Shown: in pieces, positions 1,497 through 7,635 of the stretch | Numbering within the stretch: the stretch's first letter is position 1 | Layout of the letters: every line of letters begins with the position of its first letter | Assembly (NCBI RefSeq): GCF_023093535.1 | Contig: NZ_CP095757.1 | Span: 3,658,001 to 3,722,000 of the forward strand | Origin: Halovivax limisalsi | GTDB taxonomy: Archaea > Halobacteriota > Halobacteria > Halobacteriales > Natrialbaceae | Direction of reading: 5' to 3' | Length of the DNA: 64,000 nucleotides | The notes under the pieces: generated by a model | What the model saw: only the letters and a program-made list of their open reading frames with translations | Told to the model about the DNA's origin: nothing | Databases searched by the model: none | Translations under genes and position numbers: made by a program

Positions 1497-1556
1497 ATGA
1501 CGACACCAGAGGGCGCCTCTGTCACCCGGCAGGGGAGTCGAGTTCTTCGACGGTAA
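1497..1556 (+). other. 19-codon frame overlapping the leuA 5' region
   Basis: An ATG at 1497 opens a frame that ends at TAA 1554-1556, just before the leuA GTG at 1561. In the leuA frame, the codons upstream of 1561 read GVEFFDGNE, which resembles N-terminal sequence I remember from haloarchaeal LeuA proteins, but that frame has no ATG or GTG before its stop at 1498. Removing one G from the GGGG run at 1532-1535 would join ATG 1497 to leuA in frame. Either this is the true LeuA N-terminus broken by an indel, or it is a separate upstream reading frame. Its stop overlaps a second tiny ATG frame encoding MKWLL. Confidence 0.5.
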
Positions 1557-1560
1557 TGAA

Positions 1561-2727
1561 GTGGCTACTGTAGCCGAGATTGACGACGTACAGTTCTTCG
1601 ATACGACGCTGCGAGACGGCGAGCAAGCGGCACGCATCTCCTTTACGTACGAGGAGAAACGTGAGATCGCCGCGGTGCTCGACGAGATGGGCGTCCACGT
1701 CATCGAGGCGGGCTTCCCGGTGAGCTCCGACGAGGAGTTCGAGGCGGTGCGCGACATCGCCGACGCGTGCGAGACGACCGTCTGCGGCCTCGCCCGGATC
1801 GTCGACGCCGACGTCGAGGCGGCGCTGGATTCTGGCGTGGACATGGTCCACGTCTTCGCGTCGACCTCGGACGTCCAGATCGAGGATTCGATGCACTCGA
1901 CGCGAGAGGCAGTCAAGCGCAAGTCCGTCGAGTGCGTCGAGCGCGTCACAGACGCGGGCGTCGAGTGTATGTTCTCGCCCATGGACGCGACGCGGACCGA
2001 CGCGGACTACCTCGCCGAGGTCGTCGAGGCGACGACGGAAGCGGGTGCGGACTGGATCAACATCCCCGACACGGTGGGCGTCTGTACGCCCGATCGGATG
2101 GGCGATCTCGTCGAGTTCGTCGGCGAGCACACCGACGCCGAGCTGGACGTGCACTGTCACGACGACTTCGGGATGGCGACCGCGAACTCCGTCGCCGGGA
2201 TCGAGGCCGGCGCCAGCCAGGCGCAGGTCTCGGTCAACGGGATCGGCGAGCGGGCCGGCAACGCGGCCACCGAGGAGGTCGTGATGGCGATCGAGTCCAT
2301 CTACGGCGTCGACACGGGCATCGACACCACCCGGTTCGTCGAGCTCTCCTCGCTGGTCGAGGAGCGAAGCGGCGTAACGATGCCGGCCAACAAGCCGGTC
2401 GTCGGCGAGAACGCGTTCAGTCACGAGAGCGGCATCCACGCCGCCGGCGTGATCGAGAACGCGGCGACGTTCGAACCCGGCGTGATGACCCCGGAGATGG
2501 TCGGCGCCGAGCGCGACTTCGTGCTGGGCAAGCACACCGGCACCCACAACGTCCGCAAGCACCTGCAGGAGGCGAGCTACGATCCGACCGACGAGCAGGT
2601 GCGGGCGGTGACCGCCCGCGTGAAGTCCTACGCCGCGACCGAGGGCGAGGTGACCGCGGAGGTCGTCGAGCGGATCGCCCGCGACGTCGGCGCCGACCGC
2701 GAGCGGGTCACCGAGGGCCGAGCCTGA
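1561..2727 (+). CDS. leuA: 2-isopropylmalate synthase (or citramalate synthase)
   Basis: Condenses acetyl-CoA with 2-oxoisovalerate, the first committed step of leucine synthesis. It is an HMGL-like TIM barrel: DTTLRDGEQ at residues 14-22, metal-binding HCHDD at 198-202, and GERAGNA shortly after. At 388 residues it ends soon after the barrel and lid region and lacks the C-terminal leucine-binding regulatory domain of long LeuA proteins, so feedback control by leucine through that domain is not expected. Citramalate synthase (pyruvate as acceptor) and homocitrate synthase share the fold; the leuCDB and ilv neighbours favour LeuA, with CimA the main alternative. The start is uncertain: GTG 1561 is the only in-frame start, but the true N-terminus may be ATG 1497 through an indel. 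Confidence 0.85.
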   Translation: MATVAEIDDVQFFDTTLRDGEQAARISFTYEEKREIAAVLDEMGVHVIEAGFPVSSDEEFEAVRDIADACETTVCGLARIVDADVEAALDSGVDMVHVFASTSDVQIEDSMHSTREAVKRKSVECVERVTDAGVECMFSPMDATRTDADYLAEVVEATTEAGADWINIPDTVGVCTPDRMGDLVEFVGEHTDAELDVHCHDDFGMATANSVAGIEAGASQAQVSVNGIGERAGNAATEEVVMAIESIYGVDTGIDTTRFVELSSLVEERSGVTMPANKPVVGENAFSHESGIHAAGVIENAATFEPGVMTPEMVGAERDFVLGKHTGTHNVRKHLQEASYDPTDEQVRAVTARVKSYAATEGEVTAEVVERIARDVGADRERVTEGRA

Positions 2728-2973: not shown

Positions 2974-2979
2974 TTTATG
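2974..2979 (+). promoter_or_regulatory. TATA-like box of the ilvB leader
   Basis: TTTATG lies about 28-30 bases before the GTG at 3007. That spacing would place the transcription start at or next to the GTG, making the leader frame the first codons of a leaderless mRNA. Confidence 0.45.
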
Positions 2980-3006
2980 CCGAGCCGTTGCATTTGGCTG
3001 CCCACA

Positions 3007-3090
3007 GTGAAACCGAGCGCTCCCACCCTCGACGGTCCGACGTTTTCGGGAGCAACGGTGCTCGTCGGTTCGATTATTGTAGGGGTCTAG
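3007..3090 (+). CDS. putative branched-chain leader peptide
   Basis: A 27-codon frame from GTG 3007 to TAG 3088-3090 lies 139 bases before the ilvB start. Its last 12 residues read ATVLVGSIIVGV, so 7 of 12 are Val, Leu or Ile. The Ile-Ile-Val codons are ATT ATT GTA, whereas ilvB and its neighbours mostly use ATC and GTC/GTG. The stop codon lies at the centre of a perfect 20-bp palindrome. An internal hairpin is possible (3037-3041 with 3064-3068, plus 3050-3053 with 3060-3063). This has the layout of a bacterial amino-acid attenuation leader: a short peptide rich in the pathway products, then a hairpin, then the biosynthetic operon. Translation and function are inferred. Confidence 0.45.
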   Translation: MKPSAPTLDGPTFSGATVLVGSIIVGV

Positions 3091-3098
3091 ACCCCTAC
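3079..3098 (+). promoter_or_regulatory. perfect 20-bp palindrome before ilvB
   Basis: GTAGGGGTCT followed by AGACCCCTAC is a perfect inverted repeat with no spacer. It contains the last codons and stop of the leader frame. As DNA it is a good candidate operator for a dimeric regulator such as an Lrp-type protein; as RNA it could form a hairpin with a tiny loop. The GGGTCT half could also pair with AGACCC near 3212-3217, just before the ilvB start, giving a possible alternative structure. Confidence 0.55.
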
Positions 3099-3229
3099 CT
3101 ACACCCTTCTCCACTGACCGAACGAATCGCCGACCCCCAGCCCGGCCTGTGTCTGCTGGCGCCACCGCGTTCTCAGTACGGGCGGCTGGAGGCCAATCGA
3201 GCACCAACCCCCAGACCCACCATGCAGAC

Positions 3230-5113
3230 ATGACAGATACGACGTCGACGCATCGCGAGACAGCGAGAACGGAGGAAGCGTCCGGCCGCGACGACGCTGC
3301 CGGCCGGTCCGCGGACGCAGAGCCGGCCGGCGGCACCGCGGCCACGGAAACGAATCCACCGACAGGCGGGACCAGCGACGCAGAGACGGAGGACGCCCCG
3401 GTCGCCACGGGCGCGGACGCCGTGGTTCGCGCGCTCGAGGCGGCCGGCGTCGAGCTGGCCTTCGGCGTGCAGGGCGGCGCGATCATGCCCGTCTACGACG
3501 CGCTCTCCAGCTCGTCGGTGACTCACGTGACGATGGCCCACGAGCAAGCGGCCGCCCACGCGGCGGACGCCTACGGTCTCGTGGCGAACGAACCCGGCGT
3601 CTGCCTCGCGACGTCCGGACCGGGAGCGACGAACCTCGTCACCGGCATCGCCGACGCGAACATGGATTCGGACGCGATGCTCGCCCTGACGGGACAGGTC
3701 CCGACCGACCTCGTCGGCAACGACGCCTTCCAGGAAACCGACACGGTCGGCGTCACGCGGCCCATCACGAAGGACAACTCGTTCGCCGACGACGCGAACA
3801 CGGTCGGCGCCGTCGTCGAAGACGCGTATCGGCTGGCCGGAAGCGGTCGACAGGGACCGACGCTGGTCGACCTGCCGAAGGACGTTTCGCTCGCCGACCT
3901 CGACGAGCGCGTCGCGTTCGACGACGCGGCGTCGACCGACGACACCGCGGACGGAGATCCGGCGCCGCGGGCCGACGACGCGGCGGTCGAGGCGGCCGCT
4001 CGCGCGATCGAATCGGCCGACCGACCCGTCTGCCTATTCGGTGGCGGCGTCGTCGCCGCCGACGCGAACGACGTCGCGACGGCGTTCGCGCGCGAGAACG
4101 AGATCCCGGTCGCGACGACGATGCCCGGGCTCGGATCGTTCCCCGAGGACGACGACCTCGCGCTGTCGTTCGCCGGGATGCACGGCACCGGCTACGCCAA
4201 CATGGCGATCACGCACACCGACTGCCTGATCGCCGTCGGAACCCGCTTCGACGACCGGTTGACCGGCGGCATCGAGGCGTTCGCGCCCGAGGCCGAGGTG
4301 ATCCACGTCGACATCGATCCGGCCGAGATCAGCAAGAACGTCCGCGCGGACTACCCGCTGATCGGCGACGCTGGCGCCGTCCTCGACCAGCTGTCCGAGG
4401 CCGTCGAGAGCGCACCGGCGGCCGAGTCGTGGCGCGAGCAGTGCGCCGAGTGGAAAGAGACGTATCCGCTGACCTACGGGATGCCGGACGACGAGCCGCT
4501 GAAGCCCCAGTTCGTGGTCGAAGCGTTCGACGCGGCGACGGCCGACGACGCGATCGTCACGACCGGCGTCGGCCAGCACCAGATGTGGGCGTGCCAGTTC
4601 TGGACGTTCACCGAACCGCGCACGTGGGTCTCCTCGCACGGCCTGGGAACGATGGGTTACGGCCTCCCGGCCGCGATCGGCGCGAGACTCGCGGCCGACG
4701 AGGCGGACGAGCCCGATCGCGACGTCGTCTGCTTCGAGGGCGACGCCTCGTTCCTGATGACGATCCAGGAGCTCTCCGTCGCCGTGCGCGAGAACCTCGA
4801 CGTCACCGTCGCCGTGCTCAACAACGAACACATCGGCATGGTGCGCCAGTGGCAGGACGCCTTCTTCGAGGGGCGGCGGACGGCCTCGGTGTACGACTGG
4901 ATGCCGGCGTTCGACGCGCTCGCCGAGGCGTTCGGCGCGCGCGGCTTCGCCGTCGACGACTCCGCCGACGTCGCCGACACCGTCGAGGCGGCGCTTTCCT
5001 ACGACGGTCCCTCGGTGATCGACTTCCACATCGACCCGGAGGAGAACGTCCTGCCGATGGTGCCGAGCGGCGGCGCGAACGGCGAATTCGCCCTCTCGGA
5101 GGATCACCTATGA
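3230..5113 (+). CDS. ilvB: acetolactate synthase large subunit
   Basis: Catalytic subunit of acetohydroxyacid synthase, which makes acetolactate from two pyruvates (valine, leucine) or acetohydroxybutyrate (isoleucine) with TPP, Mg and FAD. The catalytic Glu lies in MAHEQAAAH (E105 from ATG 3230); the TPP/Mg motif begins GDASFLM near residue 504 and continues through NNEHIGMVRQWQ. ATG 3230 is preferred over the GTG at 3149 because the extra 27 residues look like translated leader. A tiny ATG-CAG-ACA-TGA frame at 3222 overlaps this start. About 60 acidic low-complexity residues precede the catalytic core. The stop overlaps ilvN (ATGA at 5110). Confidence 0.95.
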   Translation: MTDTTSTHRETARTEEASGRDDAAGRSADAEPAGGTAATETNPPTGGTSDAETEDAPVATGADAVVRALEAAGVELAFGVQGGAIMPVYDALSSSSVTHVTMAHEQAAAHAADAYGLVANEPGVCLATSGPGATNLVTGIADANMDSDAMLALTGQVPTDLVGNDAFQETDTVGVTRPITKDNSFADDANTVGAVVEDAYRLAGSGRQGPTLVDLPKDVSLADLDERVAFDDAASTDDTADGDPAPRADDAAVEAAARAIESADRPVCLFGGGVVAADANDVATAFARENEIPVATTMPGLGSFPEDDDLALSFAGMHGTGYANMAITHTDCLIAVGTRFDDRLTGGIEAFAPEAEVIHVDIDPAEISKNVRADYPLIGDAGAVLDQLSEAVESAPAAESWREQCAEWKETYPLTYGMPDDEPLKPQFVVEAFDAATADDAIVTTGVGQHQMWACQFWTFTEPRTWVSSHGLGTMGYGLPAAIGARLAADEADEPDRDVVCFEGDASFLMTIQELSVAVRENLDVTVAVLNNEHIGMVRQWQDAFFEGRRTASVYDWMPAFDALAEAFGARGFAVDDSADVADTVEAALSYDGPSVIDFHIDPEENVLPMVPSGGANGEFALSEDHL

Positions 5114-7132: not shown

Positions 7133-7635
7133 CCCGGCGACCGACGTCGACCGAGCCGAACGACCGAACCGACACCGAGCGACGCGAACCGGAATCGAAC
7201 GACTCGACACAGATGACCGACGACACGACCACCCGAACCGAGGAATCGACCGCGAACCGAACCGGCGCGAGTAGCCGCGCGAAACCGTCTCGCCCGCGAC
7301 GACCCCGTCGACTGCGCGACGTGGATCACACCGCGCCCGTCGAGGGACCCGCCCGGACCTTCGAACGGAACAACGAGGGGCGGCCGCTGAAAACGGACGG
7401 CGGCGTCCCGGAGGCCGAGACACCGACGCAGTCCGGCGACGACCGACCCTCCGACGGCGGCGCCGACGTGGAGCGCGCCACCGAGGGGGACCGGGAGGAG
7501 CCGGCTACGGATGAAACGGACGACGAGGAGACGGACGCGGACCCGTCGCCGCGCCGGATGAGCGACGTCGACCACACCTCCCCCGTCGACGGCCACGTCC
7601 GCGTCTTCGACCGCGGGGACCAGGACGCCCAATGA
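7129..7635 (+). CDS. unknown protein with duplicated DVDHT motif
   Basis: A 168-residue, very hydrophilic protein encoded between ilvC and leuC with four-base overlaps on both sides, so it is part of the operon. It has no membrane segment and no recognised enzyme domain. Its most striking feature is a repeat of about 20 residues: [17 protein letters not shown] in the middle (about 7318-7370) and [17 protein letters not shown] at the C-terminus (about 7564-7615). The two copies differ mostly by conservative changes, whereas the linker is low-complexity and acidic. I remember small unnamed genes at this place in other haloarchaeal clusters, which suggests a conserved accessory role, but no function can be assigned from sequence. 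Confidence 0.75.

Follow-up and report, generated by a model that had tools for sequence, protein, structure and literature searches.

A probable tRNA-sensing attenuator in the leader of ilvB, conserved across the archaeal class Halobacteria

The ilvB gene of Halovivax limisalsi lies in a cluster with the order leuA-ilvB-(ilvN)-ilvC-leuC, as derived from the list of open reading frames in the 64-kb stretch of DNA analysed here (the window) and from Pfam matches for leuA, ilvB and ilvC. The original prediction had placed a TATA-like box, a GTG start codon and a frame of 27 codons with a branched-chain amino acid tail directly upstream of ilvB, and the sequence reads exactly as claimed (Table 1). 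Likewise, the stop codon was confirmed to sit at the centre of a perfect 20-bp palindrome, GTAGGGGTCTAGACCCCTAC, whose end is separated from the ilvB ATG by 132 bases. Searching the 64-kb window and the 3.9-Mb genome with up to three mismatches allowed uncovered no second copy of this palindrome. When both window strands were scanned for a TATA-like box followed by a start codon, 10–40 codons and a stop inside a hairpin of at least 7 bp, two matches were obtained, and a tail with Ile, Leu or Val at four of its last six residues was present only at the ilvB leader, the tail of the other match being devoid of branched-chain residues. The TATA box itself includes another in-frame ATG, at 2977; GTG 3007 is favoured as the leader start, because 65 of 66 related loci have their start 31–35 nt past this box. 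This spacing suggests that the 5′ end of the transcript coincides with the leader start codon and that the mRNA would be leaderless.

Table 1. Features of the ilvB leader locus (window positions) and the related valS leader of H. limisalsi (contig positions).
Feature	Position	Strand	Basis or remark
TATA-like box TTTATG	2974–2979	+	Sequence; GTG 3007 or its vicinity predicted as transcript start (leaderless mRNA)
Leader ORF, 27 codons, VKPSAPTLDGPTFSGATVLVGSIIVGV*	3007–3090	+	Opened by GTG 3007, closed by TAG 3088–3090; homologous frames in relatives
H1 5′ arm, ACCG 3012–3015 and GCTCCC 3019–3024	3012–3024	+	Fold, genus alignment, covariation
H1 3′ arm, GGGAGC 3048–3053 and CGGT 3056–3059	3048–3059	+	Partner of 3012–3024; own-versus-swapped test
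H3 5′ arm, GTCGG 3064–3068 and CGATT 3071–3075	3064–3075	+	Overlaps first Ile control codon
Proposed control codons ATT ATT GTA (Ile-Ile-Val)	3073–3081	+	Genome-rare codons; enriched in leader tails
H2, stop-codon hairpin GTAGGGGT-CTAG-ACCCCTAC	3079–3098	+	Stop TAG in loop; hairpin at equivalent place in relatives
17-nt G-free pyrimidine-rich tract with TTC	3099–3115	+	Proposed release/termination tract
H3 3′ arm, AATCG 3125–3129 and CCGAC 3130–3134	3125–3134	+	Own-versus-swapped z −4.4, antiparallel diagonal
Mini-ORF MQT*, TGA overlapping ilvB start (ATGA)	3222–3233	+	Sequence; overlap repeated in several relatives
ilvB, acetolactate synthase large subunit (TPP enzyme)	3230–5113	+	Pfam TPP_enzyme_N/M/C
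valS leader MPSPVAATRRSDGPLGAVFVGAS* with GGGGCGTCCTAGCCCC	near 3,004,560–3,004,644 of the contig		Loci L208/L221

Comparison of the DNA 5′ of ilvB from 70 loci of the order to which H. limisalsi belongs revealed the leader element in 66. The other four (L037, L039, L049 and L058) belong to the divergent families f9 and f11, lack a leader and carry a different gene directly abutting ilvB. In the element, a TATA box is followed about 32 nt later by the start codon of a frame of 15–31 codons, in frame with the tail, and the stop codon is accompanied by a hairpin (GGGGC...GCCCC); the tail follows the consensus (Ile/Leu)-x-Ile-Val-Gly-(Ala/Val) or a close variant. Start codon and hairpin are 45 to 87 nt apart among the 66 loci, with eleven different spacings, every one of them a multiple of three. 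In a second, named set of loci from another collection, which partly overlaps with the first, 70 leaders were detected automatically and the hairpin and tail were also present in the other nine readable loci, giving 79 of 79. Within Halorubrum the stop codon in the loop exchanges between TGA, TAA and TAG while the hairpin arms are kept.

A covariance model of tail and hairpin matched 270 of the 292 genomes of the class, usually with one copy each, and searching the rest of the phylum outside Halobacteria yielded nothing convincing. Weak matches in other classes (G445, G475 and G374) had no recognisable leader or branched-chain gene nearby and were rejected, as were additional hairpin-pattern matches in G091, G031 and G053, which arose by chance at places without a leader. 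The comparison of ilvB 5′ regions across haloarchaea called for by the original prediction found frame, stop codon and rare Ile/Val codons to be conserved throughout Halobacteria, apart from f9 and f11. The outcome that had been named as contrary evidence, a palindrome kept while the frame is lost, came out the opposite way, the perfect palindrome varying in both arms and loop. By these comparisons the ilvB leader is no coincidence. We also observed a recurrent inverted repeat resembling GCAACGxTTGCC about 20–45 nt 5′ of the leader TATA box (e.g. in L013, L016, L034 and L044), degenerate in H. limisalsi, which is possibly a transcription factor binding site.

The codons of the tail are unusual. 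As had been stated for the gene cluster, ATT and GTA are rare, representing 5% of the Ile and 3% of the Val codons in four of its genes. In the named genomes ATT accounts for 73.5% of the Ile codons in leader tails versus 4.9% in ilvB genes, and GTA for 87.6% of the Val codons versus 0.3%; the enrichment of ATT corresponds to a Fisher p of about 1e-117, calculated with related sequences. Of the last five leader codons, 68% encode Ile, Leu or Val, versus 15% of the earlier ones. No amino acid (synonymous) constraint was detected in the leader body, where pairs of close relatives gave a third-position share of 0.343 versus 0.334 expected, and a conserved-peptide reading of the body was dropped for want of a third-position excess. 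Apparently, selection keeps the frame open, retains a stop codon at its end and preserves the rare tail codons, leaving the peptide body free to vary, so that translation and the tail codons matter and the body does not, which is the pattern predicted for a codon-hunger sensor. The GTA codon is invariant even where it is unpaired and may have a role at the RNA level.

Joint folding of 27 Halorubrum leaders revealed two helices. One is the hairpin at the stop codon, H2; the other, H1, was unexpected and found unprompted, and in it the first nucleotides of the leader pair with a segment just 5′ of the Ile/Val codons. Candidate pairings were assessed by an alignment-free test in which the duplex energy of two segments from one leader is set against that obtained when the segments are exchanged between species. 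For H1 the own segments gave −23.9 kcal/mol versus −19.3 kcal/mol for swapped ones, and none of 20000 permutations was as good, with the reservation that such permutations preserve the segments and not the phylogeny, so that lineage-specific composition could add a little. With a z of −9.9, H1 was by far the strongest among 65 region pairs. Compensatory pair changes were also seen in Natrialbaceae, and covariation strongly supports H1 as a predicted RNA helix. A third helix, H3, is moderately supported: it would join the Ile/Val codon region to a segment 30–75 nt past H2, with a z of −4.4 and a signal lying along the antiparallel diagonal. H1 and H3 share one strand and are mutually exclusive, and neither competes with H2; the Ile/Val codons are placed exactly between H1 and H2. 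A hairpin equivalent to H2 occurs in all 66 relatives, the stop codon lying just beyond it (offset 24) in seven of them. Covariation was uninformative for H2 as an RNA, arguing neither for nor against it, because its G-C core is nearly invariant. No covarying antiterminator helix that would compete with H2 was found among the 65 region pairs.

Directly past H2 the sequence is depleted of G, which amounts to 4% in the first 18 nt versus 24–25% further on. These G-poor tracts of 17–18 nt contain TT+C in 70% of cases versus 22% of control windows, and TTT or longer in 21%, which is a short and weak T tract by archaeal standards. Intergenic termination sites of Haloferax volcanii comprise T stretches that end in C, and 59% of transcripts were terminated in vivo by a hairpin tested in this species (PMC7237163). 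H2 together with the tract is therefore a plausible candidate terminator.

The extra matches of the covariance model proved to sit 5′ of valS, encoding valine--tRNA ligase (NF009687). In the H. limisalsi genome the pattern GGGGCN{2,7}TAGCCCC occurs only in the valS leader, and of 30 loci found with it in relatives 24 are valS leaders, whose tail codons are usually GTT TTC GTA (Val-Phe-Val). Ile is present in 67 of 71 distinct ilvB tails versus one of 17 valS tails, the latter having been collected by a pattern that fixes part of codon −1 and leaves the codons before it free. The difference between Ile-containing ilvB tails and Val-Phe-Val valS tails indicates that the codons are matched to the enzyme encoded downstream. 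The valS leaders of H. limisalsi and relatives (L195-L200, L210-L238) are accompanied by a strongly conserved box, CGTTTCGACGGATGTATTG, on their downstream side. No valS leader was found in three of seven genomes examined (f5, f14 and f17), and a generic scan detected no leader before ileS in seven genomes or before leuS in one genome. One further full leader, MRQLDTDSHTAPASGGAVGARLIVGV*, was identified in a single genome (L152; G101:C2:397923-397943, minus strand), where it precedes an ORF of 45 amino acids with a DVDHT motif. The window has two DVDHT repeats related to this ORF in the ilvC-leuC interval (about 7250–7632); the ORF matched no Pfam family.

A separate peculiarity was observed at leuA (window 1498–1570 and L072-L151), where a +1 frameshift is apparently needed. 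A TATA-preceded ATG opens a short frame (MTTPEGASVTRQGSRVLRR* in H. limisalsi), and the conserved LeuA N-terminus (VEFFQGT.. / VEFFDGN..) is read in the +1 frame across a near-invariant block, GGTCGAGTTCTTCCAGGGCAC. Upstream of this block, ATG, GTG and TTG are all missing from the LeuA frame at 53 of 78 loci, and frame 0 carries the rare codons GTT CTT (Val, Leu). The site is a possible leucine-sensing programmed frameshift.

Taken as a whole, the ilvB leader is probably an archaeal ribosome-mediated attenuator that senses charged tRNA-Ile and tRNA-Val. Comparison established a conserved translated frame, control codons, H1, H2 at the stop codon and a valS copy with matched codons; the leader thereby combines a short frame, pathway codons before a hairpin and an RNA structure that a ribosome could alter. 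Sensing of charged tRNA by the ribosome appears well supported, as H1, H3 and the valS copy with its Val codons all speak for it, whereas we infer the stalling, the direction of control and the output, be it premature termination or translation. In the proposed mechanism, transcription would start at the leader start codon and the first ribosome would load on the 5′ end of the RNA and trail the polymerase. Scarcity of charged tRNA-Ile or tRNA-Val would stall it at the rare Ile/Val codons. A ribosome footprint reaches about 12–15 nt downstream, so that a ribosome with an Ile/Val codon in its A-site would cover the 5′ arms of H2 and H3 and the 3′ part of H1, leaving the leader RNA open, and expression would continue into ilvB-N-C and the leu genes. 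With plentiful amino acids the ribosome would reach the stop codon in H2 and leave, H2 (and H1 or H3) would fold, and most transcripts would terminate at the G-free TT+C tract or shortly beyond it, in the manner of the hairpin or T-stretch-plus-C terminators of Haloferax. Timing would matter here, as a ribosome that has reached the stop codon would keep H2 covered for as long as it is not released. In the default state, with no ribosome present, H1 would close the start region and H2 would form, turning expression off. The same module with Val codons would act at valS.

Premature termination relieved by starvation is the simplest reading of the output, and its main rival is a translational readout, in which the full mRNA is always made and a stalled ribosome opens H2 and H3 so that the mini-ORF and ilvB are translated. 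This reading fits the position of the 3′ arm of H3 upstream of the ilvB start region, and it fits the order of events, as H3 can form only after the polymerase has cleared the G-free tract and passed the point of possible termination. The stop of the mini-ORF overlaps the ilvB start, which suggests translational coupling and is also seen in relatives such as L011, L013 and L017. Against this, no leader region covaries with the ilvB start among the 65 region pairs, the sole signal there (z −2.5) connecting two windows of the start region itself; the distance from hairpin to ilvB ranges from 70 to 330 nt; and the conserved tract directly past H2 resembles a terminator. We regard a translational readout as possible but the less likely output.

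Three further explanations dispense with sensing of charged tRNA altogether. A regulatory nascent peptide of the SecM/erm type, whose C-terminal ..IVGA would arrest the ribosome on a small molecule instead of codon hunger, might be suspected from the high conservation of the last residues, Ile/Phe-Val-Gly-Ala/Val, and from the Gly-Ala common to ilvB and valS leaders. Gly-Ala/Val is dictated, however, by the GGGGC/GGGGT hairpin arm, the tail alternates between I-I-V, R-I-V, V-I-V and V-F-V, upstream residues are not conserved, and rare synonymous codons are maintained that a peptide mechanism does not need, which makes this explanation improbable. The original prediction had itself offered the alternative of a protein operator with a coincidental peptide, that is, a palindromic DNA site for a dimeric regulator, and both the perfect 20-bp palindrome near the promoter of H. 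limisalsi and the nearly invariant GGGG/CCCC core might suggest it. It is largely refuted and very improbable: the loop ranges from 3 to 9 nt, a variation in half-site spacing that a rigid dimer would not tolerate, the arms change register with pairing kept (L066; valS leaders L199, L258 and L259), and conservation extends to the frame, its stop and the rare codons, the latter matching the downstream enzyme. Variable loop and shifting register fit an RNA, not a DNA dimer site. Least credible of all is that the frame encodes an ordinary small protein or is a constitutive, non-sensing uORF, for although it is short and looks translated, its body shows no amino acid conservation and its near-universal coupling to ilvB, covarying helices and amino-acid-matched codons would be left without a reason.

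Attenuation by translation of a leader peptide is a textbook bacterial mechanism, and we know of no archaeal case. The absence of an archaeal precedent stated in the original prediction agrees with our search of the open literature, which returned none, subscription literature lying outside its scope and the absence of prior art thus being unproven; no Rfam family, including the actinobacterial ilvB leader motifs, matched at or near its gathering score. The layout had also been likened to that of bacterial ilv and leu attenuators. This holds for the translated leader, the control codons and the structure, and for two traits of the enterobacterial trp, his, leu and ilv systems: codons for the pathway product, with the RNA fold proposed to depend on where the ribosome stands, and control of both biosynthesis and an aminoacyl-tRNA synthetase gene. 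It does not extend to the 2:3 antiterminator of those systems, and the lack of any helix competing with H2 indicates that the leader is not a classical four-segment device or a copy of trp or leu; here the stalled ribosome is proposed to mask the hairpin directly, and TBP, the archaeal polymerase and a candidate terminator of the hairpin/T-C type would be involved. In E. coli pyrBI a ribosome close behind the polymerase prevents formation of a hairpin that overlaps the leader frame. The ribosome of the haloarchaeal leader is proposed to block an overlapping hairpin in the same way; the signals differ, being charged tRNA here and UTP-dependent polymerase pausing at pyrBI.

The ilvB leaders of Actinobacteria, comprising the ilvB-II motif and its relatives, resemble the haloarchaeal element in that a frame with branched-chain codons overlaps or adjoins a hairpin before ilvBNC, and the leader mRNA of C. 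glutamicum is treated as leaderless and carries a GUA Val control codon (PMC1262725, PMC10272879, PMC11857589). Their hairpin is followed by poly-U, and three competing hairpins exist in C. glutamicum, whereas the haloarchaeal leader has its stop within the hairpin in most species, no competing antiterminator and a short T tract, and also occurs at valS. The proposed output element resembles the hairpin and T-stretch-plus-C terminators of Haloferax volcanii, which were described as general 3′ ends with no leader or sensing reported (PMC7237163).

We think it likely that Halobacteria evolved an attenuator class of their own, in which a leaderless ORF is combined with a covarying H1 that shuts the start region and with a hairpin at the stop codon that a starved ribosome would mask directly. 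The class would serve a small regulon made up of valS, the ilvB-leu operon and, possibly, leuA with a counterpart that senses leucine. If this is true, it would be the first case of amino acid sensing by leader translation in Archaea, and transcription and translation in archaea would be so closely coupled that a ribosome can direct gene expression. It would also give a reason why haloarchaea keep the very rare codons ATT and GTA at one place, and would provide a natural switch for probing archaeal termination as well as a class-wide example testable in Haloferax volcanii.
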